NCBI RefSeq assembly: GCF_016097555.1
Contig: NC_054707.1
Location: 83,674,121-83,738,120 of the forward strand
Source of the DNA: Gigantopelta aegis
Taxonomy: Eukaryota; Mollusca; Gastropoda; Neomphalida; Peltospiridae
Length of the DNA: 64,000 bases
Direction of reading: 5' to 3'
The notes beneath the pieces were generated by a model that was not told where the DNA came from, did not search any database, and saw only the letters and a program-made list of their open reading frames with translations. Of this stretch, positions 3,980 to 55,436 are shown piece after piece. How positions within the stretch are numbered: the stretch's first letter is position 1; the number at the start of each line of letters is the position of its first letter. The position numbers were made by a program, and so were the translations under genes.

Positions 3980-5563
<1,584 letters not shown>

Positions 5564-15870: not shown

Positions 15871-15957
15871 TTGATCCGTTGGGCCCTACCGCTGTGAAGA
15901 TCTTATCACACAAACATTATCGACTGTGTGGGCAAATATTCAATATAATTGTTCATC

Positions 15958-16636: not shown

Positions 16637-16735
16637 TTGTTACACACGAATTATAACCGATCATCGAGGATGACATTCCAGTCGATTCCCCACACTAGAG
16701 TAATGTCTCAAGAAGAGAACCGCAAGTGTTCAGTC

Positions 16736-25327: not shown

Positions 25328-25682
25328 ATGATGGCGTCTTTCCTTAGCTGTTGGACAAACCAGTTTGTATTGATTACCTTAGCAATTCTGGACACACTAA
25401 TCATCGACGTGTCAACAACGGTTACCGCCCCTCCTGGCGCAGGCTCGCTGTTTTCACAGAGAAACGAATTAAACGACTTTGTCGCCCCCGGGCCATCAGT
25501 AGCCGTGTACCCCGGCGTTGGAAGCGCTCAGTACTGTGCGCTGTGGTGTTCCATGGACACCGAATGTCTGTCGTTCTTCTATAACAAACTGACAGCCTCC
25601 TGCGACCTGCGGCACGACATCCTCCCACTAGGCGTGACAGCGGCGTCGAACCCAGGCTCCAGATACTTTGCACTAAATACAA
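25328..25682 (+). CDS. Exon 1 (coding): signal peptide and PAN/apple-like module
   Basis: The reading frame is open from 25322, but the first ATG codons are 25328 and 25331, so translation probably starts at 25328. A pyrimidine-rich acceptor (TTTTTTTTTACTCTAG) ends at 25320, so this is probably the second exon of the mRNA. It encodes the signal peptide, a Pro/Gly/Ser linker and the four-cysteine core CALWCSMDTECLSFFY. The donor A|GTAAGT at 25683 is a strong consensus and leaves phase 1. GC content is clearly higher than in the flanking AT-rich DNA, as expected for selected coding sequence. Confidence 0.8.
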
Positions 25683-28600: not shown

Positions 28601-31600
28601 TACTAGTGTTTAACACAAGATAAGTGTCTAACACGATACTAGTGTCTAACAAGAGACAAGTGTCCAACACGATACTAGTGTCTAACACGAGATAAGTGTC
28701 TAACACGATACTAGTGTCTAACACGAGATAAGTGTCCAACACGAGACTAGTGTCTAACGCGAGATAAGTGTCTAACACTAGATAAGTTTCCAACACGAGA
28801 CTAGTGTCTAACACAAGATAAGTGTCTAACACGATACTAGTGTCTAACACGAGACAAGTATCCAACACGAGATAAGTGTGTAACACGATACTAGTGTCTG
28901 ACAAGAGATAAGTGTGTAACACGATACTAGTGTCTGACAAGAGATAAGTGTCTAACACGAGATAAGTGTCTAACACGAGATAAGTGTCCAACACTAGACT
29001 GATCTCTAACGCGAGATAAATGTCTAACACGATGCTAGTGTCTAACACGAGATAAGTGTCCAACACGAGACTAGTGTCTAAGATAAGTGTCTAACACGAT
29101 ACTAGTGTCTAACACGAGATAAGTGTCCAACACGAGACTAGTGTCTAACGCGAGATAAGTGTCTAACACGATACTAGTGTCTAACACGAGATAAGTGTCC
29201 AAAACGAGACTAGTTTGTAACACGAGATAAGTGTCTAACAAGATACTAGTGTCTAACACGAGATAAGTGTCCAACACTAGACTGATGTCTAACGCGAGAT
29301 AAATGTCTAACACGATGCTAGTGTCTAACACGAGATAAGTGTCCAACACGAGACTAGTGTCTAACACGATACTAGTGTCTAACGCGAGACAAGTATCCAA
29401 CACGGGATAAGTGTCTAACACGATTCTAGTGTCTAACACGAGATAAGTGTCCAACACGAGACTAGTGTCTAACACGAGATAAGTGTCTAACACGATACTA
29501 GTGTTTAACACGAGATAAGTGTCCAACACGATACTAGTGTCTAACAAGAGATAAGTGTCCAACACAATACTAGTGTCTAACACGATATAAGTGTCTAACA
29601 CGAGATAAGTGTCTAACACGATACTAGTGTCTAACGCGAGACAAGTATCCAACACGGGATAAGTGTCTAACACGATAGTAGTGTCAAACACGAGATAAGT
29701 GTCTAACACGATACTAGTGTCTAACACGAGATAAGTGTCCAATACGACACAAGTGTCTAACACGATACTAGTGTTTAACACGAGATAAGTGTCCAACACG
29801 ATACTAGTGTCTAACAAGAGATAAGTGTCCAACACAATACTAGTATCTAACACGAGATAAGTGTCTAACATGAGATAAGTGTCTAACACGATACTAGTGT
29901 CTAACGCGAGACAAGTATCCAACACGGGATAAGTGTCTAACATGATACAAGTGTCTAACACGAGATAAGTGTCCAATACGAGACAAGTGTCTAACACGAT
30001 ACTAGTGTCTAACACGAGATAAGTGTCTAACACGATTCTAGTGTCTAACACGAGACAAGTGTCCAACGCGAGACTAGTGTCTAACACCAAATACGTGTCT
30101 AACACGATACTAGTGTCTAACACGAGATAAGTGTCTAACACGATACTAGTGTTTAACACGAGATAAGTGTCTAACACGATACTAGTGTCTAACAAGAGAT
30201 AAGTGTCCAACACGATACTAGTGTCTGACACGAGATAAGTGTCTAACACGATACTAGTGTCTAACACGAGATAAGTGTCCAATACGAGACAAGTGTCTAA
30301 CACGATACTAGTGTCTAACACGAGATAAGTGTCTAACACGATTCTAGTGTCTAACACGAGATAAGTGTCCAACACGAGACTAGTGTCTAACACCAAATAC
30401 GTGTCTAACACGATACTAGTGTCTAACACGAGATAAGTGTCTAACACGATACTAGTGTTTAACACGATACTAGTGTCTAACGCGAGACAAGTATCCAACA
30501 CGATATAAGTGTCTGACACGATAGTATTGTCTAACACGAGATAAGTGTCTAACACGATACTAGTGTCTAACACGAGATAAGTGTCCAATACGAGACAAGT
30601 GTCTAACACGATACTAGTGTCTAACACGAGATAAGTGTCTAACACGATTCTAGTGTCTAACACGAGATAAGTGTCCAACACGAGACTAGTGTCTACACCA
30701 AATACGTGTCTAACACGATACTAGTGTCTAACACGAGATAAGTGTCTAACACGATACTAGTGTTTAACACGAGATAAGTGTCCAACACGATACTAGTGTC
30801 TAACAAGAGATAAGTGTCTAACACGAGATAAGTGTCTAACACGATACTAGTGTCTAACACGTATCCAACAGATAAGTGTCTAACACGATACTAGTGTCTA
30901 ACACGAGATAAGTGTCCAATACGAGACAAGTGTCTAACACGATACTAGTGTCTAACACGAGATAAGTGTCTAACACGATTCTAGTGTCTAACACGAGATA
31001 AGTGTCCAACACGAGACTAGTGTCTAACACCAAATACGTGTCTAACACGATACTAGTGTCTAACACGAGATAAGTGTCTAACACGATACTAGTGTTTAAC
31101 ACGAGATAAGTGTCTAACACGATACTAGTGTCTAACTAGTGAGAATAAGTGTCCAACACGATACTAGTGTCTAACACGAGAGAAGTGTCTAACACGATAC
31201 TAGTGTCTAACACGAGATAAGTGTCCAACACGATACTAGTGTCTAACACGAGACAAGTGTCTAACACGATACTAGTGTCTAACGCGAGACAAGTATCCAA
31301 CACGGGATAAGTGTCTAACACGATAGTAGTGTCTAACACGAGATAAGTGTCTAACACGATACTAGTGTCTAACACGAGATAAGTGTCCAACACGATACTA
31401 GTGACAAGTGTCTAACACAATACTAGTGTCTAACACGAGATAAGTGTCTAACACGATTCTAGTGTCTAACACGAGATAAGTGTCCAACACGATACTAGTG
31501 TCTAACACGAAATAAGTGTCTAACACGATACTAGTGTCTAACACGAGATAAGTGTCTAACACGATACTAGTGTCTAACACGAGATAAGTGTCCAACACGA

Positions 31601-34600
31601 TACTAGTTTATAACACGAGACAAGTGTCTAACACGATACTAGTGTCTAACGCGAGACAAGTATCCAACAAGGGATAAGTGTCTAACACGATAGTAGTGTC
31701 TAACACGAGATAAGTGTCTAACATGATACTAGTGTCTAACACGAGATAAGTGTCCAATACCAGACAAGTGTCTAACACAATACTAGTGTCTAACACGAGA
31801 TAAGTGTCTAACACGATTCTAGTGTCTAACACGAGATAAGTGTCCAACACGAGACTAGTGTCTAACACCAAATATGTGTCTAACACAATAATAGTGTCTA
31901 ACACGAGATAAGTGTCTAACACGATACTAGTGTTTAACACAAGATAAGTGTCTAACACGATACTAGTGTCTAACAAGAGACAAGTGTCCAACACGATACT
32001 AGTGTCTAACACGAGATAAGTGTCTAACACGATACTAGTGTCTAACACGAGATAAGTGTCCAACACGAGACTAGTGTCTAACGCGAGATAAGTGTCTAAC
32101 ACGATACTAGTGTCTAACACTAGATAAGTTTCCAACACGAGACTAGTGTCTAACACAAGATAAGTGTCTAACACGATACTAGTGTCTAACACGAGACAAG
32201 TATCCAACACGAGATAAGTGTGTAACACGATACTAGTGTCTGACAAGAGATAAGTGTGTAACACGATACTAGTGTCTGACAAGAGATAAGTGTCTAACAC
32301 GAGATAAGTGTCTAACACGATACTAGTGTCTAACACGAGATAAGTGTCCAACACTAGACTGATCTCTAACGCGAGATAAATGTCTAACACGATGCTAGTG
32401 TCTAACACGAGATAAGTGTCCAACACGAGACTAGTGTCTAAGATAAGTGTCTAACACGATACTAGTGTCTAACACGAGATAAGTGTCCAACACGAGACTA
32501 GTGTCTAACGCGAGATAAGTGTCTAACACGATACTAGTGTCTAACACGAGATAAGTGTCCAACACGAGACTAGTTTCTAACACGAGATAAGTGTCTAACA
32601 AGATACTAGTGTCTAACACGAGATAAGTGTCCAACACTAGACTGATGTCTAACGCGAGATAAATGTCTAACACGATGCTAGTGTCTAACACGAGATAAGT
32701 GTCCAACACGAGACTAGTGTCTAAGATAAGTGTCTAACACGATACTAGTGTCTAACACGAGATAAGTGTCCAACACGAGACTAGTGTCTAACGCGAGATA
32801 AGTGTCTAACACGATACTAGTGTTTAACACGAGATAAGTGTCTAACACGATACTAGTGTCTAACAAGAGATAAGTGTCCAACACGATACTAGTGTCTGAC
32901 ACGAGATAAGTGTCTAACACGATACTAGTGTCTAACACGAGATAAGTGTCCAATACGAGACAAGTGTCTAACACGATACTAGTGTCTAACACGAGATAAG
33001 TGTCTAACACGATTCTAGTGTCTAACACGAGTTAAGTGTCCAACACGAGACTAGTGTCTAACACCAAATACGTGTCTAACACGATACTAGTGTCTAACAC
33101 GAGATAAGTGTCTAACACGATACTAGTGTTTAACACGATACTAGTGTCTAACGCGAGACAAGTATCCAACACGATATAAGTGTCTGACACGATAGTATTG
33201 TCTAACACGAGATAAGTGTCTAACACGATACTAGTGTCTAACACGAGATAAGTGTCCAATACGAGACAAGTGTCTAACACGATACTAGTGTCTAACACGA
33301 GATAAGTGTCTAACACGATTCTAGTGTCTAACACGAGATAAGTGTCCAACACGAGACTAGTGTCTACACCAAATACGTGTCTAACACGATACTAGTGTCT
33401 AACACGAGATAAGTGTCTAACACGATACTAGTGTTTAACACGAGATAAGTGTCCAACACGATACTAGTGTCTAACAAGAGATAAGTGTCTAACACAAGAT
33501 AAGTGTCTAACACGATACTAGTGTCTAACGCGAGACAAGTATCCAACACGGGATAAGTGTCTAACACGATACTAGTGTCTAACACGAGATAAGTGTCCAA
33601 TACGAGACAAGTGTCTAACACGATACTAGTGTCTAACACGAGATAAGTGTCTAACACGATTCTAGTGTCTAACACGAGATAAGTGTCCAACACGAGACTA
33701 GTGTCTAACACCAAATACGTGTCTAACACGATACTAGTGTCTAACACGAGATAAGTGTCTAACACGATACTAGTGTTTAACACGAGATAAGTGTCTAACA
33801 CGATACTAGTGTCTAACAAGAAATAAGTGTCCAACACGATACTAGTGTCTAACACGAGATAAGTGTCTAACACGATACTAGTGTCTAACACGAGATAAGT
33901 GTCCAATACGAGACAAGTGTCTAACACGATACTAGTGTCTAACACGAGATAAGTGTCTAACACGATTCTAGTGTCTAACACGAGATAAGTGTCCAACACG
34001 ATACTAGTGTCTAACACGAGATAAGTGTCCAACACAATACTAGTGTCTAACACGAGATAAGTGTCTAACACGATACTAGTGTCTAACACGAGATAAGTGT
34101 CTAACACGATTCTAGTGTCCAACACGAGACTAGTGTCTAACACCAAATACGTGTCTAACACGATACTAGTGTCTAACACGAGATAAGTGTCTAACACGAT
34201 ACTAGTGTTTAACACGAGATAAGTGTCTAACACGATACTAGTGTCTAACAAGAGATAAGTGTCCAACACGATACTAGTGTCTAACACGAGATAAGTGTCT
34301 AACACGATACTAGTGTCTAACACGAGATAAGTGTCCAACACGAGACTAGTGTCTAACGCGAGATAAGTGTCTAACACGATACTAGTGTCTAACACTAGAT
34401 AAGTTTCCAACACGAGACTAGTGTCTAACACGAGATAAGTGTCTAACACGATACTAGTGTCTAACACGAGATAAGTGTCTAACACGATACTAGTGTCTAA
34501 CACGAGACAAGTATCCAACACGAGATAAGTGTCTAACACGATACAAGTGTCTAACACGAGACAAGACTTGTGTTACTATTTAACAGAGCCCAGGAGGATG

Positions 34601-35763: not shown

Positions 35764-38700
35764 TTAATCTGTAGTAAATATTTTCATCGGGAGTGGCAGC
35801 CTTCCTATAGAGGAGGCACTAAATAGAGATCCATGGAATCATCCACTATTTTGTCAAATGCCCATTCGACTCTGCATTGTGCAGAGATACGACCCTGGCC
35901 ATGTATTACGATTTTGTCGTTCAGATTAATACAGACAGACATTGAGTATCTTGTTAATTAATAATACAGCATCTTTATATATTTACAGTGTTAAACGCAA
36001 TCTGATTAACATTAGCTCTACTGGTCTACCCGTAGATCTATCAGCATTGCGTGGACTCCCATGTCCAGGTGACCTTTCATCTATAAATAACAATTTAAAT
36101 ATCGATCAATTACACTTCGTCTATTATAGCGTTATTTGGGAGCATACGAATTCTAAAAATATTGGGCGAGACTATTTATGCAATAGGCGAATTTGTTAGT
36201 ATATTTCAACATTAAAAAGCAGTAATAAACTCTGGATTGTATACTAGTATGAACAGATTTAATGGCTATATCATCACGGTTTTGGGGGGTTTTGTCTTGA
36301 AACGAATTTTATATAAAATTTTAAATTGAAATTAGTTTCCGGCATACTTCGTAATTCACCCGAATCATTTCGTATACCCTCGGTATAATCCCGAATGTTT
36401 TCAAATTATTTTCAAATCACTGGATTCCCAGTCTGGAGCTCCACGCGGTAAGACGTGTTTGTTTCGCTTGTGCACACTGGACGTGCTTTCGTGTACTCGA
36501 CTCGGGGATCCTTCATTTCGTTGTTTTTGTCAGCGAAATGAAGTTTTCTACTGGGATGTATGCGGCCATTGGAACTGATTGAACGCTGGAACGCTTCTCG
36601 TTTCGACAGCCTGCACCACCAGGTTGGATTCTTTTTTAGCGAGATTCCTTGCCTCCACGTCATTTCTTCGGCTGACTATGTCAACTCGTTTTTTCGTGAC
36701 TCGTATGACGGCCATTCTGCAGAACGCCACGGTTGTTCGTGTTTAGTATCTACATGTCCGAGCCTGTCCTAGCAGCACTGGATGATTGACTGTCCCACTT
36801 TAAAGTTGAAATAGGAAGCGGGGTCGGCCCCTACTACTCTTTTCTAGACTTTACTTTGTTATATTGTGATACCATCTCGTATCCTTCGGAGTCGGGCCCG
36901 TCCGCACCACTATACCAACCCATGACGACTGGACTATACCCGTCTGATACTCTCTCTCTCGTTCAGACGGATCCGGCTTCTCAAGATCTGTATTTCAGCA
37001 CAGCACTACACCTTCAACGTCTAATGACTGTCAATCTAGGGGGTTTCTTGGCGGGATGCAACCCATCTCGTCCCTATAAGCTGTTCACCCAAACGGCCTT
37101 AACGAGGCCACTCACGTGGACATATAGATCGGACTTTTATGTCAAAATTACTTTCTTTTTTAATATTATTAAATAGTCCGATCCCCTCTTCTTTCTCTTA
37201 TTTATTTTTGGACTGTTCTTCTAAAATGCTCCAAATTATATAACTATTCGGCTGAGCAGTCAATTCTTTTTATTTTTGGCTTGTAACGTTTTATTTAAAA
37301 AAAAAATTAAATTCTATTCTATTCTATTTTTTACTAATTGCTATTTTCAAAATTCTGCCCATTTTGAACTCTATCCGATCGTATCGGAGGCAGGACTCGG
37401 GATGGGCGTGTTCGAAACCCTAGTGGTATATCTATTTATCAAATCACTGGCATGATTTTGCAAGTAAGGTTTTGATTGGTCAAAGGAAAGGTCATCTGGA
37501 CATGACGGGGTGCTGTTAGATCCACAGGTAATAGTAATTAACCAGTGGAGCTAATTTTAATTAGATTTTGTTAAACGTAAACGTATCCTTCCATCACTAC
37601 ACAATATCATTTTTAAAATGCATTTTTTCAATGTTCAATCGTGCATACTTGTTTGCGCTATTTACAACCGAAAGGAAACACTGTAGACTTATAAATGTTT
37701 GTTTCAGAATGCACCGTCCTCCCTACAATTATACCCAACGGGCATCCTCAACCGAACTCCAGCAACTCGGTGTGGACGGTTGGTGACGTCATATCCGTGA
37801 CCTGTGACGCGGCGCGCGTGCTGTATGGCCAGTTACGGTGTGAAGGAGGGAATAAGTGGAATATCCCGGCATGTGGTAACAATTAAACCAACAAACATCA
37901 CTTAAACATTGAGTTCATTGTAATACTGAGTTAACTACAGGTTTTGGAACGAAGGAAGGAAAAAAAAAGAAATGTTTTATTTAACGACGCACTCAACACA
38001 TTTTATTTACGGTTATATGGAGTCAGACATATGGTTAAGGACCACACAGAGTTTGAGAGGAAACCCGCTGTCGCCACTACATGGGCTACTCTTTCCGATT
38101 AGCAGCAAGGGATCTTTTATTTGCGCTTCCCACAGGCAGGATAGCATAGACCATGGCCTTTGTTGAACCAGTTATGGATCACTGGTCGGTGCAAGTGGTT
38201 TACACCTACCCATTGAGCCTTGCGGAGCACTCACTCAGGGTTTGGAGTCTGTATCTAGATTAAAAATCCCATGCCTCGACTGGGATCCGAACCCAGTACC
38301 TACCAACCTGTAGACCGATGGCCTAACCACGACGCCACCGAGGCCGGTCGAAGGAAGGATTACGTCGCACTAGAATGACTTTATAACCCGGCACTTATAT
38401 ACCATAGCGTTTATTCGTCATTATATATGTCCTGAATATATCACATTATTATGTGATAGAATGAGAGAGAGAATGACAGATTGACTGAATGTTTAACGAT
38501 AACCCAGCACAAAATAATAATCGGCAACTGGGTGGACACATAAAGACAGACAGACATGGGTGGATGATTTCTTGGCTACACGTTTATTTTTCTTTCTGCT
38601 AGAGATTCCATCGTGTGCTGCTTTAAAGGCTTGTGACGTCAACGCTGTGGACGAAGAATACTGGCTTTTCCCCGCAATCTTGCAAGGTCAGAAGGTCAAG

Positions 38701-41700
38701 GTCTACTGCAGCGATATGACGTCAGCGACGCCAAAAGAGTATATCACTCTAGAGGGAGATAACTATGGCCAATCGCCAAACATCAGCAATAAGAACTGCG
38801 AAGGAGAAACCCAATCTAAAGTACCTAACTTGGTTGGAGAATCGTCATACACCAAGATCAGAATCAATCTCACGGTAAGCGACTATAGTACCCGATGTGG
38901 TTGAAGAATCGTCATACACTAAGATCAGAATCAATCTCACGGTAAGCATCTATAGTGCCCGATGTGGTTGAAGAATCGTCATACACTAAGATCAGAATCA
39001 ATCTCACGGTAAGCATCTATAGTACCCGATGTGGTTGGAGAATCGTCTACACTAAGATCATAATCAATCTCACGGTAAGCGTCTATAGTACCCGATGTAG
39101 TTGAAGAATCGTCATACACAAAGATCAGAATCAATCTCACGGTAAGCTTCTATAGTACCCGATGTAGTTGAAGAATCGTCTACACCACGAACAGAATCAA
39201 TCTCACGGTAAACGTCTATAGTACCCCATGTGGTTGAAGAATCGTCATACACTAAGATCAGAATCAATCTCACGGTAAGCGACTATAGTACCCGATGTGG
39301 TTGAAGAATCGTCATACACTAAGATCAGAATCAATCTCACGGTAAGCATCTATAGTGCCCGATGTGGTTGAAGAATCGTCATACACTAAGATCAGAATCA
39401 ATCTCACGGTAAGCATCTATAGTACCCGATGTGGTTGGAGAATCGTCTACACTAAGATCATAATCAATCTCACGGTAAGCGTCTATAGTACCCGATGTAG
39501 TTGAAGAATCGTCATACACAAAGATCAGAATCAATCTCACGGTAAGCTTCTATAGTACCCGATGTAGTTGAAGAATCGTCTACACCACGAACAGAATCAA
39601 TCTCACGGTAAACGTCTATAGTACCCCATGTGGTTGAAGAATCGGCATACACTAAAATAAGAATCAATCTCACGGTAAGCATCTATAGTACCCGATGTGG
39701 TTGAAGAATCGTCTACACTAAGATCAGAATCAATCTCACGGTAAGCGTCTATAGTACCCGATGTGGTTGAAGAATCGTCTTACACCAAGATCAGAATCAA
39801 TCTCACGGTAGGTTTCTATAGTACCATATGTGGTTGAAGAATCGTCTACACCAAGATCAGAATCAATCTCACGGTAGGTTTCTATAGTACCAGATGTGGT
39901 TGAAGAATCGTCTACACTAAGATCAGAATCAATCTCACGGTAAGCGTCTATAGTACCCGATGTGGTTGAAGAATCGTCATACACTAAGATCAGAATCAAT
40001 CTCACGGTAAGCGTCTATAGTACCCGATGTGGTTGAAGAATCGTCTACACTAACATCAGAATATATATCACGGTAAGCGTCTATAGTACTCGATGTGGTT
40101 GAAGAATCGTCTACACTAAGATCAGAATCAATCTCACGGTAAGCGTCTATAGTACCCGATGTGGTTGAAGAATCGTCTACACTAATCTATAGTACTCAGT
40201 AAGATCAGAATCAATCTCACGGTATAGTACCCGATGTGGTTGAAGAATCGTCTACACTAAGATCAGAATCAATCTCACGGTAAGCGTCTATAGTACCCGA
40301 TGTGGTTGAAGAATCGTCTACACCAAGATCAGAATCAATCTCAGTACTCGATGGTTGAAGAATCGTCTACACTAAGATCAGAATCAATCGATGTGGTTCG
40401 GTAAGCGAATCAATCCCACGGTAAGCGTCTATAGTACCCGATGTGGTTGAAGAATCGTCTACACCAAGATCAGAATCAATCTCACGGTAGGTTTCTATAG
40501 ATGTGGTTGAAGAATCGTCTACACTAAGATCAGAATCAATCTCACGGTAAGCGTCTATAGTACCCGATGTGGTTGAAGAATCAATCTCTGTAGTACACGA
40601 TGTGGTTGAAGATCAGAATCAATCTCACGGTAGGCGTCTATAGTACCCGATGTGGTTGAAGAATCGTACACAAAGATCAGAATCAATCTCACGGTAAGGT
40701 TCTATAGTACCCGATGTGGTTGAAGAATCGTCTACACCAAGATCAGAATCAATCTCACGGTAAGCGTCTATAGTACCCGTATGTGGTTGAAGAATCGTCT
40801 ACACCAAGATCAGAATCAATCTCACGGTAGGTTTCTATAGTACCCATATACCCGATGGTTGAAGAATCGTCTACACTAAGATCAGAATCAATCTCACGGT
40901 AAGCATCTATAGTACCCGATGTGGTTGAAGAATCGTCATACACCAAGATCAGAATCAATCTCACGGTAAGTCTATAGTCTATGTGGTTGAAGAATCGTCT
41001 ACACCAAGATCAGAATCAATCTCACGGTAGGTTTCTATAGTACCCGATGTGGTTGAAGAATCGTCTACACCAAGATCAGAATCAATCTCACGGTAAGATC
41101 AGTCTCACGGTAAGCGTCTATAGTACCATATGTGGTTGAAGAATCGTCATACACTAAGATCTCAATCTCATAGTAGAAGTAATCGTCTATACACCAAGAT
41201 GTGGTTGAAGAATCAATCTACCCGATGTGGTTGAAGAATCGTCACCAAGATCAGAATCAATCTCACGGTAGGTTTCTATAGTACCCAATCTGGTTGAAGA
41301 ATCGTCTACACCAAGATCAGAATCAATCTCACGGTAGGTTTCTATAGTACCATATGTGGTTGGAGAATCGTCTACACTAAGATCAGAATCAATCTCACGG
41401 TAAGCGTCTATAGTACTCGATGTGGTTGAAGAATCGTCTACACTAAGATCAGAATCAATCTCACGGTAAGCGTCTATAGTACCCGATGTGGTTGAAGAAT
41501 CGTCTACACTAAGATCAGAATCTATCTCACGGTAAGCGTCTATAGTACCCGATGTGGTTGAAGAATCGTCTACACTAAGATCAGAATCAATCTCACGGTA
41601 AGCGTCTATAGTACCCGATGTGGTTGAAGAATCGTCTACACTAAGATCAGAATCAATCTCACGGTAAGCGTCTGTAGTACCCGATGTGGTTGAAGAATCG

Positions 41701-44700
41701 TCATACACAAAGATCAGAATCAATCTCACGGTAAGCGTCTATAGTACCCGATGTGGTTGAAGAATCGTCTACACAAAGATCAGAATCAATCTCACGCTAA
41801 GCATCTGTAGTACCCGATGTGGTTGAAGAATCGTCTTACACCAAGATCAGAATCAATCTCACGGTAGGTTTCTATAGTACCCAATCTGGTTGAAGAATCG
41901 TCTACACTAAGATCAGAATCAATCTCACGTTAAGCATCTGTAGTACTCGATGTGGTTGAAGAATCGTCATACACAAAGATCAGAATCAATCTCACGGTAA
42001 GCTTCTATGTGGTTGAAGAATCGTCTACACCAAGATCAGAATCAATCTCATGGTAGGTTTCTATAGTACCCAATCTGGTTGAAGAATCGTCTACACTAAG
42101 ATCAGAATCAATCTCACGCTAAGCATCTGTACTACCCGATGTGGTTGAAGAATCGTCATACACTAAGATCAGAATCAATCTCACGGTAAGCATCTATAGT
42201 ACCCGATGTGGTTGGAGAATCGTCTACACTAAGATCAGAATCAATCTCACGGTAAGCGTCTATAGTACCCGATATGGTTGAAGAATCGTCATACACAAAG
42301 ATCAGAATCAATCTCACGGTAAGCTTCTATGTGGTTGAAGAATCGTCTACACCAAGATCAGAATCAATCTCATGGTAGGTTTCTATAGTACCCAATCTGG
42401 TTGAAGAATCGTCTACACTAAGATCAGAATCAATCTCACGTAAGCTTCTATAGTACCCAATCTGGTTGAAGAATCGTCTACACTAAGATCAGAATCAATC
42501 TCACTAAGCATCTGTACTACCCGATGTGGTTGAAGAATCGTCATACACTAAGATCAGAATCAATCTCACGGTAAGCATCTATAGTACCCGATGTGGTTGA
42601 AGAATCGTCTACACTAAGATCAGAATCAATCTCACGGTAAGCATCTATAGTACCCGATGTGGTTGAAGAATCGTCATACACTAAGATCAGAATCAATCTC
42701 ACGGTAAGCGTCTATAGTACCCGATGTGGTTGAAGAATCGTCTACACCAAGATCAGAATCAATCTCACGGTAAGCGTCTATAGTACCCGATGTGGTTGAA
42801 GAATCGTCTTACACTAAGATCAGAATCAATCTCACGGTAAGCTTCTGTGTGTGGTTGAAGAATCGTCATACACTAAGATCAGAATCAATCTCACGGTAAG
42901 CGTCTATAGTACCCGATGTGGTTGAAGAATCGTCTACACTAAGATCAGAATCAATCTCACGGTAAGCGTCTATAGTACCCGATGTGGTTGAAGAATCGTC
43001 TACACTAAGATCAGAATCAATCTCACGGTAATGTGGTTGAAGAATCGTCTACTAGTACTCCGGTCTATAGTACTCGATGTGGTTGGAGAATCGTCTACAC
43101 TAAGATCAGAATCAATCTCACGGTAAGCGTCTATAGTACCCGGTGTGGTTGAAGAATCGTCATACACTAAGATCAGAATCAATCTCGCGGTAAGCTTCTA
43201 TGTGGTTGAAGAATCGTCTACACCAAGATCAGAATCAATCTCACGGTAATATTCTATAGTACCCGATGTGGTTGAGGAATCGTCTACACCAAGATCAGAA
43301 TCAATCTCACGGTAAGTTTCTATAGTACCCGATGTGGTTGGAGAATCGTCATACACTAAGATCAGAATCAATCTCACGGTAATATTCTATAGGACCCGAT
43401 GTGGTTGGAGAATCGTCTACACTAAGAGTAGAATCAATCTCACGGTAATATTCTATAGTACCCGATGTGGTTGAAGAATCGTTATATACCAAGATCAGAA
43501 TTAATCTCACGGTACCATTTGTGACATTGTTTGTGTTTTTAGGTGTGAGACGATCCGACATATGTTTCGTTTCATTGTCCCGCTCCATAGTTATTCCAGG
43601 CCCTAGTGTTTGTTTGTGGTGTCTGGAGTGAGGTAGGTTGTAGGGTCGGCAATCCCCACCTCCACTTTTTGCCTCACCCACCTTCACTCTTTGCCTCACC
43701 CACCTTCACTCTTTGCCTCACCCACCTTCACTCTTTGCCTCACCCACCTTCACTCTTTGCCTCACCCACCTTCACTCTTTGCCTCACCCACCTTCACTCT
43801 TTGCCTCACCCACCTTCACTCTTTCCCTCACCCACCTTCACTCTTTCCCTCACCTACCTTCACTTTGCCTCACCCATCTTCACTCTTTCCCTCACCTACT
43901 CCCAATCTTTGATTTTCCCCACCCCAACTCTTTGATTCCCCAATCCTTACTCTTTACCTTCTCCGCTGTTTGCGTGGGGTTTTTCCTGAACGAATGTAAT
44001 GCTGTACGACTGATGTATCAAAGACCGTGTGTTGAGTGGGCGTCACATAGTCACTTAAAAACCGTTAATGAGCATTCCTTCTTTGTTTTTGTTTTTGACC
44101 ACTGGACTAACCAGGATTTTATATATTGGGGAGGGGGCAACCCATATTGGGGGGCTAACCCACACTATGTACGTATGTATGTATGTATGATTTTATATAA
44201 TTTAATAGTTAAAAACAAAAACAAATTTGATTGTGGGGCATGACCCTCGTGCCCCCCCCCCCCCCCCCCCATCTCCAACGCCACTGAACATAACCAATGT
44301 TACTCTTCAGAAACTAAAGATAATGTAGACAATTCCCGAAAATTGCATTTTCACTCTTGAAAATATCACATCTCAACATTACCTGAAGATAAACACTTGC
44401 CTTGTAGAGTATGTTCAACATTTCCCGCTCTCCCCGCTCTCTCCCCGCTCTCTCCCCGCTCTCCCCGCTCTCCCCCGCTCTCTCCCCCCGCTCTCCCCGC
44501 TCTCTCCCCCCGCTCTCCCCGCTCTCCCCCGCTCTCTCCCCCCGCTCTCCCCCCGCTCTCTCCCCGCTCTCTCCCCCCGCTCTCCCCGCTCTCCCCCGCT
44601 CTCTCCCCCCGCTCTCCCCGCTCTCTCCCCGCTCTCTACCCCCGCTCTCCCCGCTCTCCCCGCTCTCTTTCCTCCGCTCTCTCCCCCCGCTCTCTCCCCC

Positions 44701-45722: not shown

Positions 45723-48700
45723 CGTGCGCGCGTATGTGTGTAAATGAAAACAAGAATAAAACCCCACATGCAATTCAAAACAAGAAAAAACAAATAAGAA
45801 AGAAAAACAAATTGTCCGGTGCCGTTGCATACAGACTGGATAATTAAACAGGATACGTCAAATTTAAGATTACCGCTCGAAACAGGTAGATGCATATGGT
45901 ATAACATTGATAAAGAAAACATGCAATACTGATATTTGAAGTGAATACCATTATTTATTCAATTGTAAAAAATCAAAATAATGAAAGCATGAGAAGAAAA
46001 TATACACCAAAATACTCTAAAACTAATACTAACGTTTTGAAAATGAAAGGTATTCTGTCTATGTGTAATGCACCATTATTTGAAAACCTTGATTAATGAA
46101 ATTGTGAATTGTTTTTTTTTTTTTGCGCTTTTTAGAGACCGGGTATTTTCGTTAAGTACCAGGTGTTTGTTCAACTTCATTACAACTATAGATATTCCAT
46201 GTTGATGCGTGTTCTTGTTAGGTTTGTTAACTATGTATTTCAATTGTCCTGTTGTAATGTGCCCAAGTGTTGTTAAATAAAACCACCCGAATACGTTGCG
46301 TCGGCAGTTCAAAGCACGTCAAAAACTCATTTAAGGTAGTATGCAATTGTATTTCATCTAGTACCACTGTGTCAGGTAACCTTGTGCTTGAAACATGTAT
46401 GGAGTACCTGTAAAAATGGTACTCATATTTTGTGCGGAGCTAAGGTAGTCATAGACTGTACCTGTTATCTCTGAAATAAGCAGCTTGATCCCCATTTTTT
46501 CTTATTTACTTTAAGGGTGAGGGGGTGGTAGTATTTATATCCGTAGTGTATATGTCGATTGATACGCTGCAGGTAGGAGTTGTAGCCACATCTGTTACTA
46601 TTGTCGTCTATGGGATTTTATTTGGTGGTTTACACCCTTAAAGCTGAACACTGTCAGTGTCAGATTGCTACATTTTATGGCTTAAAAAATTATAATAATT
46701 AAAAAAAACCTGAACTGAGTTTTTTTCATAATTTGATATTGATAATTCAGTAATACTACGCGAAAAGTCAAAATATATAGCTAGGTTAGCTACCAGTCAC
46801 TACTGTATTATGATTTTTGTTTGGTTTCTGTCGTATCTTCGTTTTGGAGGTTATTCAAAACTCATTACACAGTTCAAACTATTAACAAACAACCGTTAGT
46901 TTGTCGAGTCAAACTCGTTAAGTTGTAGTCGAATATTCTCTCGTCATTTCCATCGAATAATCGAACACTATTTTCAGATCGAATACCGAACACTAATTTT
47001 CAGTTAAAGTTGTGCTTGATTTTTGTTTTATTTCCAGACGATGGAAGTGGATATTGACGACGCCACGTTCGCAAACATCACGAGTACGGATGACTGGCCG
47101 TATGCAATAGCCAGGGATTGCTATGCAATTCACTATAACGGAAACCCCTACTGTGGCGGGCCTAGGGGAACGTTCACGGTCAATACAACAAACACAGGTC
47201 TTGTTGTCAAGTCGACGGTACGTTGTTCTTGTGGGTCGACGGTACGTTGTTCTTGTGGGTCGACGGTACGTTGTTCTTGTGGGTCGAGTGCTTTTCTTTG
47301 CGTTTGTTGTTTTTAATCCGTCGACTTCTGTATCTAATCAAAACGAAATTCGATATAAAGAAGCGTACTGGGGCCATTTTGAATTATGTCCATCACACAC
47401 ACACTAATTCATTAATGGAAGTGAATGTATAACCATGTTCACGTCTCTCTTCCCACACCCACACACCCACACCCACCCCACCCCCAACAAATGTGACAGA
47501 GAAAACATGTTGGTCAGGTTTCAATGACTCTTCAAAGAGAAAATGTGAACACGATAGATTTAATCGGATTCTAAAACTAAAACGTGAACACGATAGATTT
47601 AATCGGATTCTAAGATTAAAACGTGAACATGATAGATTTAATCGGATGCTAAGATTAAAACGTTATGTTTAACAAAACCAGTAGCGATTTCGGCTATCGG
47701 ATGTCAAAAATTTGGTAATTCTGACATATAGTGTTAGAAATAGGAAACCCGCCACATGTTTGTCCATTAGTAGCTAGAGATCTGTTATATACACCATCCC
47801 ACAGACAGGATACAATATACCGCAATCTTTGATACACTTGTCATGGTGCATTGGCTAGAACGAGAAATATCTCAATAGACATCCGATAGCCGATGATTTA
47901 TAAATCAATGTGCTCTAGTGGTGTCGTTAAACAAAACGAATTTTAAACGCAATTGACCCACGGACAGGAATCAGTCCGAGACAGACCGCGCATCAAGTGA
48001 ATACTTTTCGACTGGGCTCCGTCCCATCCCGATTCTACGAATACTTTTCGACTGGGCTCCGTCCGATCCCGATTCTACGAATACTTTTCGACTGGGCTCC
48101 GTCCCATCCCGATTCAACAATTGCGTCCTAGTGACAATAAAGGTATTTCAGCTGTTTTATATTTCAGCTATTTGATATTTCAGCTATTTAATATTTCAGT
48201 CTTCTTCTTCTCCATTATTTTGTGTCAAGGATTATTCAGCAAGAAATGAGTGAACTGGATTTTGTTATTTTCTCGTACGTTAAATGTGTATATCTGGCTG
48301 CCCTGCTCTACAGAGCCTATCCATTTCCCTGGGAGACATAAACATCAGTTGAAACAAACGAACCACAGTATTGTTGGGTTTTTATTATTTCCTTGGGACA
48401 CACAAACATCGGGTGAAATTAGCGTACCACAGTATTGTTTGGTTTTCTTTCATCAGGTGACCTGGAAAATATTTGGTTGGAAATCCTATCAGATCATTGA
48501 TCGCATGCCTGGTGATTCGGTCATCAACCTGAACTGTGGAGGCTGGCCTGGAGGCTGTGCGCCAGGCGGACCTCTACTGCTAGAACTCAACCCAAACGAA
48601 GGTTTGTCCGCTTGTCTGCGTGTTTGTTAGGATATCTGTGTTTGTGGCTGGCTGATGGTTGTTTGAATATTAGGATGTCAGTGTCTGTGGCTGGCCGATG

Positions 48701-50297
48701 GTTGCCTGCATGTTAGGATGTCTGTGTTTGTGGCTGGTCGATGGCTGGCAGCATGTTAGGATGTCTGTGTTTGTGGCTGGTCGATGGCTGTCTGCATGTT
48801 AGGATCTCTGTGTTTGTGACTGGTCGATAGCTGTCTGCATGTTAGGATTTCTTTGTTTCTGGGTGGTCGATGGCTGTCTGCATGTTAGGACGTCTGTGTT
48901 TGTGGCTGGTCGATGGCTGGCTGCATGTTAGAATGTCTGTGTTTGTGGCTGGCCGATGGCTGTCTGCATGTTAGGATGTCTGTGTTTGTGGCTGGCCGAT
49001 GGCTGTCTGCATGTTAGGATGTCTGTGTTTGTGACTGGCCGATAGCTGTCTGCATATTAGGATTTCTTTGTGTGTGGGTGGTCGATGGCTGTCTGCATGT
49101 TAGGACGTCTGTGTTTGTGGCTGGCCGATGGCTGTCTGCATGTTAGGATGTCTGTGTTTGTGGCTGGCCGATGACTGCATGTTAGGATGTCTGTGTTTGT
49201 GGCTGGCCGATGGCTGTCTGCATGTTAGGATCTCTGTGTTTGTGGCTGGCCGATGGCTGTCTGTCTGTTAGGATGTATGTTAGGATGTCTGTGTTTGTGG
49301 CTGCTCGATGGCTGTCTGCATGTTAGGATGTCTGTGTTTGTGGTTGGCCAATTGCTGGCAGCATGTTAGGATATCTGTGTTTGTGGCTGGTCGATGGTTG
49401 TCTGCCTGTTAGGATGTCTGTGTTTGTGGCTGGCCGATGGCTGTCTGCTTGTTAGGATGTCTGTGTTTGTGGCTGGCCGATGGCTGTCTGCATGTTAGGA
49501 TCTCTGTGTTTGTGGCTGGCCGATGGCTGTCTGTCTGTTAGGATGTATGTTAGGATGTCTGTGTTTGTGGCTGCTCGATGGCTGTCTGCATGTTAGGATG
49601 TCTGTGTTTGTGGTTGGCCAATTGCTGGCAGCATGTTAGGATATCTGTGTTTGTGGCTGGTCGATGGTTGTCTGCCTGTTAGGATGTCTGTGTTTGTGGC
49701 TGGCCGATGGCTGTCTGCCTGTTAGGATGTCTGTGTTTGTGGCTGGCCGATGGCTGTCTGCATGTTAGGATGTCTGTGTTTGTGGCTGGTCGATGGTTGT
49801 CTGCCTGTTAGGATGTCTGTGTTTGTGGCTGGCCGATGGCTGTCTGCCTGTTAGGATGTCTGTGTTTGTGGCTGGCCGATGGCTGTCTGCATGTTAGGAT
49901 GTCTGTGTTTGTGGCTGGTCGATGACTATCTGCATTCTAGGATGTCTGTGTTTGTGGCTGGCCGATGGCTGATTGTTTTAGCCTCCTCTCACCTTGCCTC
50001 CCTGGTCACTAGGTCGACTACGAAGGTCACTATGTCACTAGGTCGACTACGTAGGTATTACTTCGAGATAATGGTCTTCAATCGTAGTTGGACTGTCACG
50101 TGTATTTATAACAATGAAAACATACAGTATCATCAAGTGAATTTATAACAGTGACAACAATAAACTGCTATATAGCATCGTCATGTATACTTGTAACCAT
50201 GGAGATCTATTATACAGCATCACGTGACTCATTCACGCTTTGTTTTCCTCTCTTTGCAGATTTACCAGAGGAGAGCGCATCGTATGCCAAGTGCTGA
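25328..50297 (+). CDS. Secreted PAN-sushi-GON domain protein, six coding exons (385 aa)
   Basis: Joining exons 25328-25682, 37708-37875, 38603-38874, 47038-47217, 48457-48601 and 50260-50297 gives 1158 nt: 385 residues plus stop. Intron phases are 1, 1, 0, 0, 1 and every border is GT-AG. Residues 1-26 form a signal peptide with core FVLITLAIL. Residues 60-115 are PAN/apple-like (Cys70, 74, 80, 92). Residues 120-174 are a four-cysteine sushi module with Trp169 before the last Cys. Residues 176-372 match a GON domain: SCAALKAC, EEYWL, VKVYCSDM, PKEYITLEGDNYG, PYAIARDCY, GTFTVNTTNTGL and a closing CGGWPGGCAP. GON is known from GON-1/ADAMTS9/ADAMTS20; no metalloprotease or TSP1 repeat is visible, so an extracellular matrix or defence role is only inferred. 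The AG at 25319-25320 suggests an upstream untranslated exon. An extra exon inside intron 1 cannot be excluded. Confidence 0.8.
26241..26385. repeat. Fold-back hairpin 4, in intron 1
   Basis: CATTTCGTATCATGTTTATG and its inverse near 26350-26368 pair, with AAAATAATTTTCA / GAAAATTATTT inside. Another half copy (CGAGCTTCCATTTCGTATG) follows at 26398. Confidence 0.85.
26710..26777. repeat. Fold-back hairpin 5, in intron 1
   Basis: CAGTGACGATAACACATTTT plus AGAGTGAAA pairs with its inverse ending CGTCACTG. Nearly perfect 30-bp arms. Confidence 0.85.
27057..34563. repeat. 7.5-kb satellite of 18/36-bp units
   Basis: Two alternating 18-bp units, TGTCTAACACGATACTAG and TGTCTAACACGAGATAAG, make a 36-bp dimer repeated about 200 times. 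The first 200 bp uses a variant TGTCTAACACGTGACTAG. The minus strand stays open for up to 553 codons reading LDTSIV-LDTYLV because 18 is a multiple of three. There is no start context, domain or flanking exon, and the frame breaks repeatedly, so it is not called coding. Shared rare variants show block duplications of roughly 2.7 and 3.36 kb. Confidence 0.95.
35005..35320. repeat. ~103-bp unit in three tandem copies
   Basis: TTTATGTTCTAGATGGG starts units near 35005, 35109 and 35212. Each includes CCGTTACTACCCTACTACTG and AACTGAATCAGCCGCAC. Confidence 0.93.
35322..35596 (+). mobile_element. B-type tRNA-headed SINE
   Basis: The head is GGGCGGGACGTAGCCCAGTG with box A TAGCCCAGTGG and B-box-like GCATCGATTCCC. 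The tail is CCAATAGCCGATG and GTGCTCTAGTGGTGTCGTTA. Part of the middle is deleted after GGATGGTGCGTATAAAA. Confidence 0.85.
35723..35764. repeat. (ATT)n microsatellite
   Basis: About 14 ATT units. Confidence 0.95.
35998..37568 (+). mobile_element. MITE with 9-bp target duplication, interrupted by a 1.0-kb insertion
   Basis: TGTTAAACG lies at 35989-35997 and 37569-37577. The left inverted repeat starts CAATCTGATTAACATTAGCT and the right end is TGGAGCTAATTTTAATTAGA. Internal sequence matches the uninterrupted copy at 58289. The copy is split at 36424-37438. It lies in intron 1 and ends 140 bp before exon 2. Confidence 0.85.
36424..37438. mobile_element. 1015-bp insertion of unknown family inside the MITE
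   Basis: TCAAATCACTGG flanks it at 36412-36423 and 37439-37450, a 12-bp target duplication typical of target-primed retrotransposition. It contains poly-A-like T/A tracts and (TTCTA)n near 37315 but no recognisable protein domain. Short frames inside look like chance. Confidence 0.6.
37708..37875 (+). CDS. Exon 2: sushi/CCP module
   Basis: The acceptor TTTGTTTCAG ends at 37707 and the donor is G|GTAACA at 37876. The exon is symmetric (phase 1-1), which is typical for shuffled sushi modules. It encodes Cys-x30-Cys-x11-Cys-x10-Cys with the motifs VGDVISVTCD and LRCEGGNKWNIPAC, including the Trp normally found before the last cysteine. At about 56 residues it has usual sushi size. It lies 12 kb after exon 1 and 727 bp before exon 3. 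Confidence 0.8.
37876..38602 (+). other. Intron 2 (727 bp), mostly a SINE
   Basis: Bounded by G|GTAACA and CTGCTAG|A. A chimeric SINE fills 37961-38348. Confidence 0.75.
37961..38348 (-). mobile_element. Chimeric SINE: A-type tail with a different tRNA head
   Basis: CGAAGGAAGGA flanks the copy at 37950-37960 and 38349-38359. The left part is the A-type tail and body (AAATGTTTTATTTAACGACG, GGGATCTTTTATTTGCGC). The right part is a head of the type seen at 3296 (inverse of GGCCTCGGTGGCG and GGTTCGGATCCC). Box A and B remain. Confidence 0.85.
38603..38874 (+). CDS. Exon 3: N-terminal part of the GON domain
   Basis: The acceptor TTTCTTTCTGCTAG ends at 38602; entry is phase 1 (codon GAG split G|AG). 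It encodes residues 175-265, starting EIPSCAALKACD and ending YTKIRINLT. SCAxL, EEYWL, VYCSDM and PKEYITL are hallmarks of the start of GON domains. The donor ACG|GTAAGC at 38875 is phase 0. The last 54 nt of this exon plus about 13 nt of intron are the unit tandemly repeated through the next 4.7 kb. Reading past the first donor hits an in-frame TGA at 38902-38904, so only the first donor can yield the full protein. Confidence 0.82.
38821..43513 (+). repeat. ~66-bp minisatellite built from the exon 3 / intron 3 junction, about 70 copies
   Basis: Each unit holds GTACCCGATGTGGTTGAAG, AATCGTCATACACTAAGATC, AGAATCAATCTCACG and the donor GTAAGC. The first unit starts inside exon 3 (GTACCTAACTTGGTTGGAGA at 38821). 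Unit length is 65-67 bp, varying with CGTCATACAC versus CGTCTACAC. The first six units are duplicated as a 400-bp block (38879 onward and 39279 onward). Units from about 40180 to 41230 are scrambled by deletions. Minus-strand frames of up to 180 codons here arise from the 66-bp period and are not genes. Confidence 0.93.
43656..43905. repeat. 22-bp minisatellite
   Basis: CTTTGCCTCACCCACCTTCA with 22-bp spacing, about 10 copies, the last ones degenerate. Confidence 0.93.
44105..44290. repeat. G-run repeat element, copy 2
   Basis: ACCAGGATTTTATATATTGG, CAACCCATATTGGGG and AACCCACACTATGTA, ending in GTGCCCCCCC and AACGCCACTG. The first part recurs at 45283-45365. Confidence 0.55.
44428..44740. 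repeat. Homopyrimidine minisatellite (CCCCGCTCTCT)n
   Basis: Irregular units of 9-14 bp made of CTCTCCCCGCTCTCTCCCC. Reading frames on both strands (Ser/Pro/Leu-rich or Glu/Arg/Gly-rich) come from the repeat only. Confidence 0.93.
45283..45365. repeat. G-run repeat element, copy 3
   Basis: GTAGCCAGGATTTAATGGGG followed by a G run, CAACCCATATTGGGGGA and ACCCACACTATGTATG. Confidence 0.55.
45630..45720. repeat. (TA)n and (GT)n microsatellite
   Basis: About 7 TA units, then about 28 GT units. Confidence 0.95.
47038..47217 (+). CDS. Exon 4: central part of the GON domain
   Basis: The acceptor TTTTATTTCCAG ends at 47037; entry and exit are phase 0. It encodes residues 266-325, including PYAIARDCYA, PYCGGPRGTF and NTTNTGLVV, which match the middle of GON domains (AxAxDCY followed by a GTFxxN block). 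The donor ACG|GTACGT at 47218 is part of a 24-bp unit present three times, so two further in-frame donors lie at 47242 and 47266. Confidence 0.8.
47211..47288 (+). repeat. 24-bp triplication of the exon 4 splice donor
   Basis: GTCGACGGTACGTTGTTCTT followed by GTGG recurs three times without a mismatch. Each copy carries the donor ACG|GTACGT, at 47218, 47242 and 47266. The frame is open through all three. Confidence 0.95.
47660..48000 (-). mobile_element. B-type SINE with an inverted tail fragment inside
   Basis: The minus-orientation body runs from about 47662 to 47877 (GGCTATCGGATGTCAAAAAT through CTAGAACGAGAAATATC). It is broken by a + strand tail fragment at about 47878-47945 (CCGATAGCCGATGATTTATA through GTGGTGTCGTTAAACAAAAC) and then continues to the head (GACCGCGCATCAAGTG). 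It lies in intron 4. Confidence 0.7.
48001..48118. repeat. 40-bp triplication of the SINE head
   Basis: ATACTTTTCGACTGGGCTCC plus GTCC.ATCCCGATTC recurs at 48001, 48041 and 48081. The first copy is the SINE's own head. Confidence 0.9.
48457..48601 (+). CDS. Exon 5: C-terminal part of the GON domain
   Basis: The acceptor TTTCTTTCATCAG ends at 48456. The exon encodes VTWKIFGWKSYQ and then LNCGGWPGGCAPGGPL, corresponding to the W...G and CGGxCGxC ending of GON domains. Exit is phase 1 at G|GTTTGT (48602). If the intron is retained the frame runs ten more codons to a stop, replacing the normal last 12 residues by GLSACLRVC. Confidence 0.78.
48602..49975 (+). repeat. 43-bp minisatellite starting at the exon 5 donor, about 31 copies
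   Basis: The unit is TTAGGATGTCTGTGTTTGTG, GCTGGCCGATGGCTGTCTGC and ATG. The first bases of the intron (GTTTGTCCGC..TTGTCTGCGTGTTTGTTAGGAT) align with the unit, so the array appears seeded at the splice donor. A block of about 250 bp is duplicated (around 49200 and 49470). Confidence 0.92.
50260..50297 (+). CDS. Exon 6: last 12 codons and stop
   Basis: The acceptor TCCTCTCTTTGCAG ends at 50259. Joined to the last G of exon 5 it reads DLPEESASYAKC followed by TGA at 50295-50297. The acceptor is strong and the phase fits, but 12 codons carry little statistical weight, so this is the least certain exon. No canonical AATAAA was noticed in the few hundred bases after the stop. A MITE begins at 50672. 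Confidence 0.6.
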
Positions 50298-52576: not shown

Positions 52577-55436
52577 TTGTGAGGGGTGTGAGAATATGAC
52601 GCTGTGAGGGGTGTGAGAGTATGACGCTGTTAGGGGTGTGAGAGTATGACGCTGTGAGGGGTTGTGAGGGGTGTGAGAGTATGACGCCGTGAGGGGTGTG
52701 AGAGTATGACGCTGTGAGGGGTGTGAGAGTATGACGCTGTGAGGGGTGTGAGAGTATGACGCTGTGAGGGGTGTGAGAGTATGACGCTGTGAGGGGTTGT
52801 GAGAGTATGACGCTGTGAGGGGTGTGAGAGTATGACGCTGTGAGGGGTGTGAGAGTATGACGCTGTGAGGGGTGTGAGAGTATGACGCGGTGGGGTGTGT
52901 GAGAGTATGACGCTGTGAGGGGTGTGAGAGTATGACGCTGTGAGGGGTGTGAGAGTATGACGCTGTGAGGGGTGTGAGAGTATGACGCTGTGAGGGGTTG
53001 TGAGGGGTGTGAGAGTATGACGCCGTGAGGGGTGTGAGAGTATGACGCTGTGAGGGGTGTGAGAGTATGACGCTGTGAGGGGTGTGAGAGTATGACGCCG
53101 TGAGGGGTGTGAGAGTATGACGCTGTGAGGGGGTGAGAGTATGACGCTGTGAGGGGTGTGAGAGTATGACGCTGTGAGGGGTGTGAGAGTATGACGCTGT
53201 GAGGGTGTGTGAGAGTATGACGTTGTGAGGGGTGTGAGAGTATGACGCTGTGAGGGGTGTGAGAGTATGACGCTGTGAGGGGTGTGAGAGTATGACGCTG
53301 TGAGGGGTGTGAGAGTATGACGTTGTGAGGGGTGTGAGAGTATGACGCTGTGAGGGGTGTGAGAGTATGACGCTGTGAGGGGGTGTGAGAGTATGACGTT
53401 GTGAGGGGTGTGAGAGTATGACGCTGTGAGGGGGTGTGAGAGTATGACGCTGTGAGGGGTGTGAGAGTATGACGCCGTGAGGGGTTGTGAGAGTATGACG
53501 CTGTGAGGGGTTGTGAGGGGTGTGAGAGTATGACGCTGTGAGGGGTGTGAGAGTATGACGCTGTGAGGGGTGTGAGAGTATGACGCCGTGGGGTGTGTGA
53601 GAGTATGACGCTGTGAGGGGTTGTGAGGGGTGTGAGAGTATGACGCTGTGAGGGGTTGTAAGGGGTGTGAGAGTATGACGCCGTGGGGTGTGTGAGAGTA
53701 TGACGCTGTGAGGGGTTGTGAGGGGTGTGAGAGTATGACGCTGTGAGGGGTTGTGAGGGGTGTGAGAGTATGACGCTGTGAGGGGTTGTGAGGGGTGTGA
53801 GAGTATGACGCTGTGAGGGGTTGTGAGGGGTGTGAGAGTATGACGCTGTGAGGGGTGTGAGAGTATGACGCTGTGAGGGGTGTGAGAGTATGACGCCGTG
53901 GGGTGTGTGAGAGTATGACGCTGTGAGGGGTTGTGAGGGGTGTGAGAGTATGACGCTGTGAGGGGTGTGAGAGTATGACGCTGTGAGGGGTTGTGAGGGG
54001 TGTGAGAGTATGACGCCGTGGGGTGTGTGAGAGTATGACGCTGTGAGGGGTGTGAGAGTATGACGCTGTGAGGGGTGTGAGAGTATGACGTTGTGAGGGG
54101 TGTGAGAGTATGACGCTGTGAGGGGTTGTGAGGGGTGTGAGAGTATGACGCTGTGAGGGGTGTGAGAGTATGACGTTTGTGAGGGGTGTGAGAGTATGAC
54201 GCTGTGAGGGGTTGTGAGGGGTGTGAGAGTATGACGCTGTGAGGGGTGTGAGAGTATGACGCTGTGAGGGGTGTGAGAGTATGACGCTGTGAGGGGTTGT
54301 GAGGGGTGTGAGAGTATGACGCCGTGGGGTGTGTGAGAGTATGACGCTGTGAGGGGTGTGAGAGTATGACGCTGTGAGGGGTGTGAGAGTATGACGCTGT
54401 GAGGGGTTGTGAGGGGTGTGAGAGTATGACGCTGTGAGGGGTTGTGAGGGTGTGGAGAGTATGACGCTGTGAGGGGTGTGAGAGTATGACGCCGTGGGGT
54501 GTGTGAGAGTATGACGCTGTGAGGGGTGTGAGAGTATGACGCTGTGAGGGGTGTGAGAGTATGACGCTGTGAGGGGTTGTGAGGGGTGTGAGAGTATGAC
54601 GCTGTGAGGGGTTGTGAGGGGTGTGAGAGTATGACGCTGTGAGGGGTGTGAGAGTATGACGCTGTGAGGGGTGTGAGAGTATGACGCTGTGAGGGGTTGT
54701 GAGGGGTGTGAGAGTATGACGCCGTGGGGTGTGTGAGAGTATGACGCTGTGAGGGGTGTGAGAGTATGACGTTGTGAGGGGTGTGAGAGTATGACGTTGT
54801 GAGGGGTGTGAGAGTATGACGCTGTGAGGGGTTGTGAGGGGTGTGAGAGTATGACGCTGTGAGGGGTGTGAGAGTATGACGCTGTGAGGGGTGTGAGAGT
54901 ATGACGCTGTGAGGGGTTGTGAGGGGTGTGAGAGTATGACGCTGTGAGGGGTGTGAGAGTATGACGTTGTGAGGGGTGTGAGAGTATGACGCTGTGAGGG
55001 GTTGTGAGGGGTGTGAGAGTATGACGCTGTGAGGGGTTGTGAGGTATGACGAGTATGACGCTGTGAGGGGTGTGAGAGTATGACGCTGTGAGGGGTGTGA
55101 GAGTATGACGCTGTGAGGGGTTGTGAGGGGTGTGAGAGTATGACGCCGTGGGGTGTGTGAGAGTATGACGCTGTGAGGGGTGTGAGAGTATGACGTTGTG
55201 AGGGGTTGTGAGGGGTGTGAGAGTATGACGCTGTGAGGGGTGTGAGAGTATGACGTTGTGAGGGGTGTGAGAGTATGACGTTGTGAGGGGTGTGAGAGTA
55301 TGACGCTGTGAGGGGTGTGAGAGTATGACGCTGTGAGGGGTGTGAGAGTATGACGCCGTGAGGGGTGTGAGAGTATGACGCCGTGAGGGGTGTGAGAGTA
55401 TGACGCTGTGAGGGGTGTGAGAGTATGACGCTGTGA
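52577..55436. repeat. 25-bp minisatellite, about 2.9 kb
   Basis: The unit is GTGAGGGGTGTGAGAGTATG plus ACGCT. A longer variant adds GTGAGGGGTT before the unit. Combinations such as GACGCCGTGGGGTGTG recur at regular distances, showing higher-order structure. It is G-rich on the + strand. Confidence 0.97.

Follow-up and report, generated by a model that had tools for sequence, protein, structure and literature searches.

A minisatellite that repeats the exon 3 splice junction of a PAN-GON gene in the gastropod Gigantopelta aegis

A 64,000-nt stretch of the Gigantopelta aegis genome (G000:C9:83674121-83738120; hereafter the window, with positions counted from its first letter) contains a gene encoding PAN and GON domains whose third intron begins with a long minisatellite made from copies of the gene's own exon 3 splice donor. 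Genome searches covered the 1.149-Gb assembly of 5216 contigs. The molluscan haemocyanin domain PF14830 has 5 matches in it, the best with E 5.8e-33, and all of them fall on two contigs late in its numbering, C2783 and C5121, which suits a mollusc. The host gene has six exons on the + strand with compatible phases, which join into 1158 nt, or 385 codons plus a stop (a slash marks the exon edge):

25328..25682, + strand: exon 1, with start codon, hydrophobic N-terminus and PAN domain; donor AA/GTAAGT (phase check and translation)
37708..37875, + strand: exon 2; donor GTG/GTAACA (sequence and phase check)
38603..38874, + strand: exon 3, first part of the GON domain; true donor ACG/GTAAGC
47038..47217, + strand: exon 4, second part of the GON domain; donor ACG/GTACGT
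48457..48601, + strand: exon 5, end of the GON domain; donor AAG/GTTTGT
50260..50297, + strand: exon 6, holding the stop codon TGA

Pfam recognizes PAN_1 in the joined 385-aa protein (E 4.4e-5; 1.3e-5 for the open reading frame at exon 1) and a GON domain at residues 178-362 (E 2.2e-30) that spans the exon 3/4 and exon 4/5 junctions; the match of the GON hidden Markov model (HMM) in exon 3 lies at G000:C9:83712731-83712994. Exon 2 looks sushi-like by eye, with no Pfam match to a sushi domain in either the exon or the joined protein, and its donor carries no array among the Tandem Repeats Finder (TRF) calls for the window. Measured from the exon ends, intron 3 is 8.2 kb long and the intron upstream of exon 3 is 727 bp.

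Three features define the repeat at the end of exon 3:

38832..43514, + strand: array straddling the exon 3 donor, 66/67-bp units with 72 unit starts (TRF and segmentation)
38902..38904, + strand: in-frame TGA, starting 28 nt past the true donor and reached if any later donor is used
38832..39631, + strand: 400-bp block duplication within the array, 38832-39231 against 39232-39631, with 2 differences

TRF calls the array at 38831-43514 with periods 66 and 133, and its first unit is the end of exon 3 itself. Unit length is 66 or 67 bp in 51 of the 72 units, and exon-to-unit alignment resolves each unit into about 60 nt of exon 3 (38815-38874) followed by about 7 nt of intron 3 (GTAAGCG), with the most upstream 17-nt stretch of that alignment equalled in score by 3 of 2000 shuffles. 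The coding sequence in the units is in register with exon 3. An earlier note on this DNA had proposed that the minisatellite derives from the junction of exon 3 and intron 3, which the unit alignment and the TRF call bear out; its division of the unit into 54 nt of exon and 13 nt of intron was close to the measured one. Most units do keep the donor, as the note had also said: GT stands at the aligned donor position in 65/72 units (63/72 by a stricter motif), and the 9-mer of the true donor, ACGGTAAGC, recurs exactly in 40/72, unit 1 included, with 0 further occurrences on the window's + strand. The note's figure of about 70 decoy donors thus fits the number of units and is somewhat too high for the decoys, of which about 64 have a GT and 39 match the true 9-mer exactly. 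The true donor forms a U1 duplex of -8.2 kcal/mol, a value that the 39 decoys share because their 9-mers are identical to it, and the variant ACGGTAGGT reaches -8.5 kcal/mol.

What would follow if one of these decoys were used? The TGA at 38902 is in frame after donor 1, so that any later donor would bring a premature stop and a truncated protein, in agreement with the earlier note, and mRNAs carrying such a stop are expected to undergo nonsense-mediated decay. Joining and translating the exons keeps the 385-aa frame open only with donor 1. Column conservation was computed from the 62 of 72 units that measure 56-69 bp: the consensus frequency averages 0.97 over the 42 columns before the donor and 0.89 over the 24 columns after it, about 17 of which are likewise exon-derived, and across these aligned units conservation of the donor itself (G 0.94, T 1.00) is no higher than that of the adjoining columns.

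The array appears to be home-grown. Exon 3 extended by 26 nt of intron was searched against the genome with a tool that scores only the best candidates and skips very common words; the search returned 71 matches including the query, all of them at this locus, and we conclude from this that the array arose locally. The earlier note had allowed that the repeat might prove unrelated to the exon or older than it, and the 71/71 local matches speak otherwise. That a dispersed satellite landed beside exon 3 by chance is exceedingly improbable: we found no point in its support, and the units hold coding sequence in the register of the exon. With no copies elsewhere among the matches found, we rejected a dispersed or transposon-borne repeat as the source.

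The two copies of the duplicated block are identical over 391 bp (38854 against 39254), a run that takes in the true donor together with the final 21 nt of exon 3. This exact internal repeat and the TRF period of 133 beside 66 are signs of tandem-repeat turnover; unless the block pair is an artefact of assembly, that turnover was recent and carried the functional boundary along. Units between 40163 and 41230 are irregular and could be polishing errors, a point for the view that the array is an artefact of assembly or the gene a pseudogene, and the decoys irrelevant. We consider this view very improbable, given units that have diverged from one another (mean pairwise identity 0.89), unlike those of a looped assembly, of which the 400-bp block pair alone could be an instance, and given a complete 385-aa frame with consistent phases and a strong GON match. 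On the strength of the intact six-exon frame we rejected a pseudogene.

The exon 3 array is not the only one to cross or approach an exon edge of the host gene:

47211..47287, + strand: second donor-straddling array, at exon 4, 24 bp × 3.2, with GTCGACG/GTACGT at 47211, 47235 and 47259
48625..49971, + strand: 43 bp × 30.9 array, 23 bp past the end of exon 5 (TRF)

The exon 4 copies are in frame and free of stops, and use of a decoy there would add 8 or 16 codons. A genome-wide search with the final 78 nt of exon 4 finds no sequence other than the query; it also misses exon 4's own 24-bp copies, from which we conclude that short copies escape it. The first partial unit of the 43-bp array can be brought against the exon 5 donor by gapped alignment only. 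Intron 1 contains a further array, about 208 units of 36 bp that extend over 7.5 kb (window 27059-34565), for which we saw no link to an exon edge.

Do such arrays occur at other genes? GON-domain exons match 63 places in the genome by HMM, 54 of which lie in the stretches that we fetched or in the window. Four GON paralogues outside the window carry boundary-spanning arrays, at three donors and two acceptors, and one P450 exon does so as well:

C5:17263079: GON exon donor, 29 bp × 59, ACATCACC/GTAAGTA
C7:1027234: GON exon donor, 31 exact occurrences of AAAGTCGCT/GTGAGTG, counting the true one
C7:1024680: acceptor of the following exon of that C7 gene, 99 bp × 7
C3352:2219: GON exon acceptor, 32 bp × 10, including about 6 nt of exon (by eye)
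C9:68790708: GON exon donor, 103 bp × 3.8 (by eye)
C14:41292426 (L062), - strand: P450 exon, donor near 41292456 straddled, 44 bp × 12 as far as the fetched stretch reaches

In the C7 gene a single intron of 2.37 kb on the - strand (C7:1024863-1027233) bears about 30 decoy donors at one end and several decoy acceptors at the other, the two arrays filling about 93% of it by their coordinates. The same gene has a 161-bp unit repeated 5.9 times at C7:1022731-1023682 (L041), the start of which resembles, by eye, the reverse complement of an interspersed element at window 37970-38350. Unit sequences differ among the three GON genes with large donor arrays, and a tree built from 25 exon sequences does not unite these genes in one clade: their distribution takes 3 changes, the starred branches force at least 2, and a grouping that would allow a single change appears in 0% of 200 bootstrap trees. 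As a test of one inherited event behind the donor arrays, the three genes do not group, although one gain with subsequent losses could still produce the pattern.

The P450 exons served as a control, with 20 exon ends drawn from 93 matches; in about 18 of the 20 a GT is visible, by eye, close to where one is expected. With one of the 20 donors straddled, boundary arrays extend beyond GON genes. At that exon the true donor is AAAGGA/GTAAGT and the copies read AAAGGA/GTTAGT or GTTAGA, with U1 duplexes of -2.0 kcal/mol against -5.9 kcal/mol for the true site. At a second P450 exon (L063) an array begins within about 20 bp of the donor, and the remaining 18 of the 20 ends have no such array within 220 bp. 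Three exons of the PF00118 chaperonin family (C4:33755057-33755305, C2:43214846-43215034 and C4:19809938-19810111) lie in open frames of 680, 653 and 624 aa, which, from coordinates only, far exceed the matched stretch; such lengths would be explained by stop-free minisatellites that cross the exon edge or adjoin it.

Is an exon edge a preferred place for an array to be founded, or would chance suffice in a genome so rich in minisatellites? Counting arrays of period 15 or more and score 100 or more, the sampled GON loci outside the window hold 47, or 0.21 per kb, with a mean period of 68 bp and 13.5% of the sequence covered. Founding segments placed at random would straddle 1.4% of edges, or 1.24 of the 86 counted, a set that leaves out GON matches whose start falls between profile positions 6 and 69 or past 104. 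The strict automatic count finds 3/86 edges straddled (Poisson P 0.13), made up of 2/24 A donors, 1/18 B acceptors, 0/23 A acceptors and 0/21 B donors, and 4/106 once the 20 P450 donors are included (P 0.07), a rate not significantly above random placement. These figures speak for neutral placement only, a reading compatible with the one that we favour below and different from it only on founding bias; we regard it as evenly balanced. Against it stand the two cases identified by eye, with which the count rises to 5/88 (P 0.01), or 6/108 with the P450 sample (P 0.005), figures that were reached post hoc, rest partly on judgement by eye and draw mostly on related genes. The automatic rule had missed the C3352 acceptor, where it took the second AG of CAG/AG, and the C9:68790708 donor, where the HMM match fell outside the classes counted. 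All of these P values are rough, since related genes supplied most of the edges and the background rate was estimated at the same loci. Taken together, the counts show a weak enrichment, suggestive of a founding bias at exon edges. Extrapolation would put boundary minisatellites at a few percent of exon edges genome-wide, in thousands of introns and sometimes at both ends of one, a prospect that we hold tentatively, as a little less than an even chance.

How might a gene live with dozens of donors as good as its own? In amphioxus, minisatellite-like tandem copies of an exon-intron boundary, called mirages, are described in Adh3, the globins BflGb6 and BflGb9, TnC and PGBD5; they lie on the donor or the acceptor side, many copies keep splice signals, and normal splicing is described as undisturbed (PMC3087553, PMC3902484). 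We think it probable, from sequence evidence, that the exon 3 array is a mirage that grew by unequal recombination and is tolerated since exon definition favours the first donor. It would have been founded when a piece of DNA holding the last part of a coding exon and the first part of the intron behind it was duplicated in tandem, with expansion and homogenisation following by unequal recombination or slippage. Where flanking introns are long, the spliceosome may define the exon first and prefer whichever donor lies nearest its acceptor, in which case donor 1 would be used and the later copies would pass as ordinary intron, their decoys mostly silent. The gene would then survive because exon definition picks the first copy as its donor. 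Human data point the same way, the upstream of two near-equal 5' sites being favoured when both flanking introns are long (PMC9225289). If this exon-proximity rule applies in this animal, as we infer, it predicts donor 1 here and the last acceptor in acceptor arrays, the choices that the open frame of the host gene and the exon starts of its paralogues require.

Several observations weigh against this account. The decoys are not weakened, with 39 exact copies of the true donor matching its U1 energy. The human preference is a bias, and some decoy use followed by mRNA decay is plausible. The stronger conservation of columns before the donor than after it could hint at constraint, although homogenisation would account for it too. 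Finally, shuffled labels on the GON tree need a mean of 2.9 changes, as many as the 3 observed, and the tree alone says little beyond the donor-array genes not being one clade.

Might the decoys instead have been put to use? Under regulated unproductive splicing, a share of transcripts would take later donors, meet the TGA and be degraded, and the array would thereby lower or tune output. The retention of GT in nearly all units and of the exact 9-mer in more than half, the stop that awaits every later donor and the better-conserved columns before the donor would all suit such a role, which we nevertheless consider unlikely: the arrays follow no common logic, that of exon 4 being in frame and stop-free, the P450 copies are weaker than their true donor, the exon 3 donor is conserved no better than its neighbours, and nothing in the sequence favours a regulatory use. 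A tolerated mirage thus remains the reading that we prefer for exon 3.

The earlier note knew of no described case of this kind, a claim that the amphioxus mirages and human IFI6 overturn as precedents. As in the mirages, the unit here spans an exon-intron boundary, many but not all copies keep the splice signal, and the repeat turns over. Judged by its anatomy, the exon 3 array is a mirage, and its 72 unit starts exceed the 6 and 3 units in two haplotypes of BflGb6 (PMC3087553), the mirage whose copy number appears in the part of that literature covered, Adh3 lying outside the comparison. Differences from amphioxus are the phylum, Mollusca, and the presence of a paralogue in which one intron has decoy donors at its start and decoy acceptors at its end. 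In IFI6 (6-16, G1P3), two downstream minisatellite units reportedly serve as donors, which allows three mRNA species (PMC4526556); there too a minisatellite sits at an exon end and its units supply donor sites, whereas later donors here, known from sequence alone, would truncate the protein. Human segmental-duplication genes also have minisatellites at exon-intron boundaries, where internal tandem repeats are able to change splicing and give rise to new introns (PMC2812944), but those repeats average 30-bp units × 4, and the array here is far longer and lies in an intron. Among gastropods, an intron of the abalone TSSK1-like gene contains a minisatellite of 27-bp units × 62 whose repeat number varies between individuals (PMC6905558), with no boundary-spanning unit stated in the part of that report covered. 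The partially covered literature on molluscs (abalone TSSK1-like, Conus and a door snail) and earthworm describes no boundary array.

To our knowledge, splice-site choice has mostly been studied with few competing sites. In the host gene, whose frame is intact, the true donor of exon 3 faces about 64 decoys within a single intron, and 39 of these match it at all nine bases; at loci of this sort, RNA would reveal how strongly exon proximity alone decides. Mirages outside chordates, recurring within one mollusc genome, bear on intron growth and on the origin of new splice sites. Should boundary arrays prove as frequent as the extrapolation has it, the spliceosome would regularly face dozens of identical donors, of which it must take the first, and several identical acceptors, of which it must take the last, making these introns a natural experiment on exon definition as well as a standing source of new exons, new introns and in-frame isoforms, such as the +8 and +16 codons at exon 4.

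The window has other repeats away from the exons of the host gene. Four distinct minisatellites, with units of 65, 50, 52 and 45 bp, follow one another at 14498-17935 with gaps of about 60-100 bp, and downstream of the host gene a G-rich 25/50-bp array of about 2.9 kb occupies 52578-55436, with a GC skew near 0.6. Tc1/mariner-like transposase frames (DDE_3, HTH_Tnp_Tc3_2) lie at 4334-5392 on the + strand and at 22406-23458 on the - strand, the latter in two pieces.

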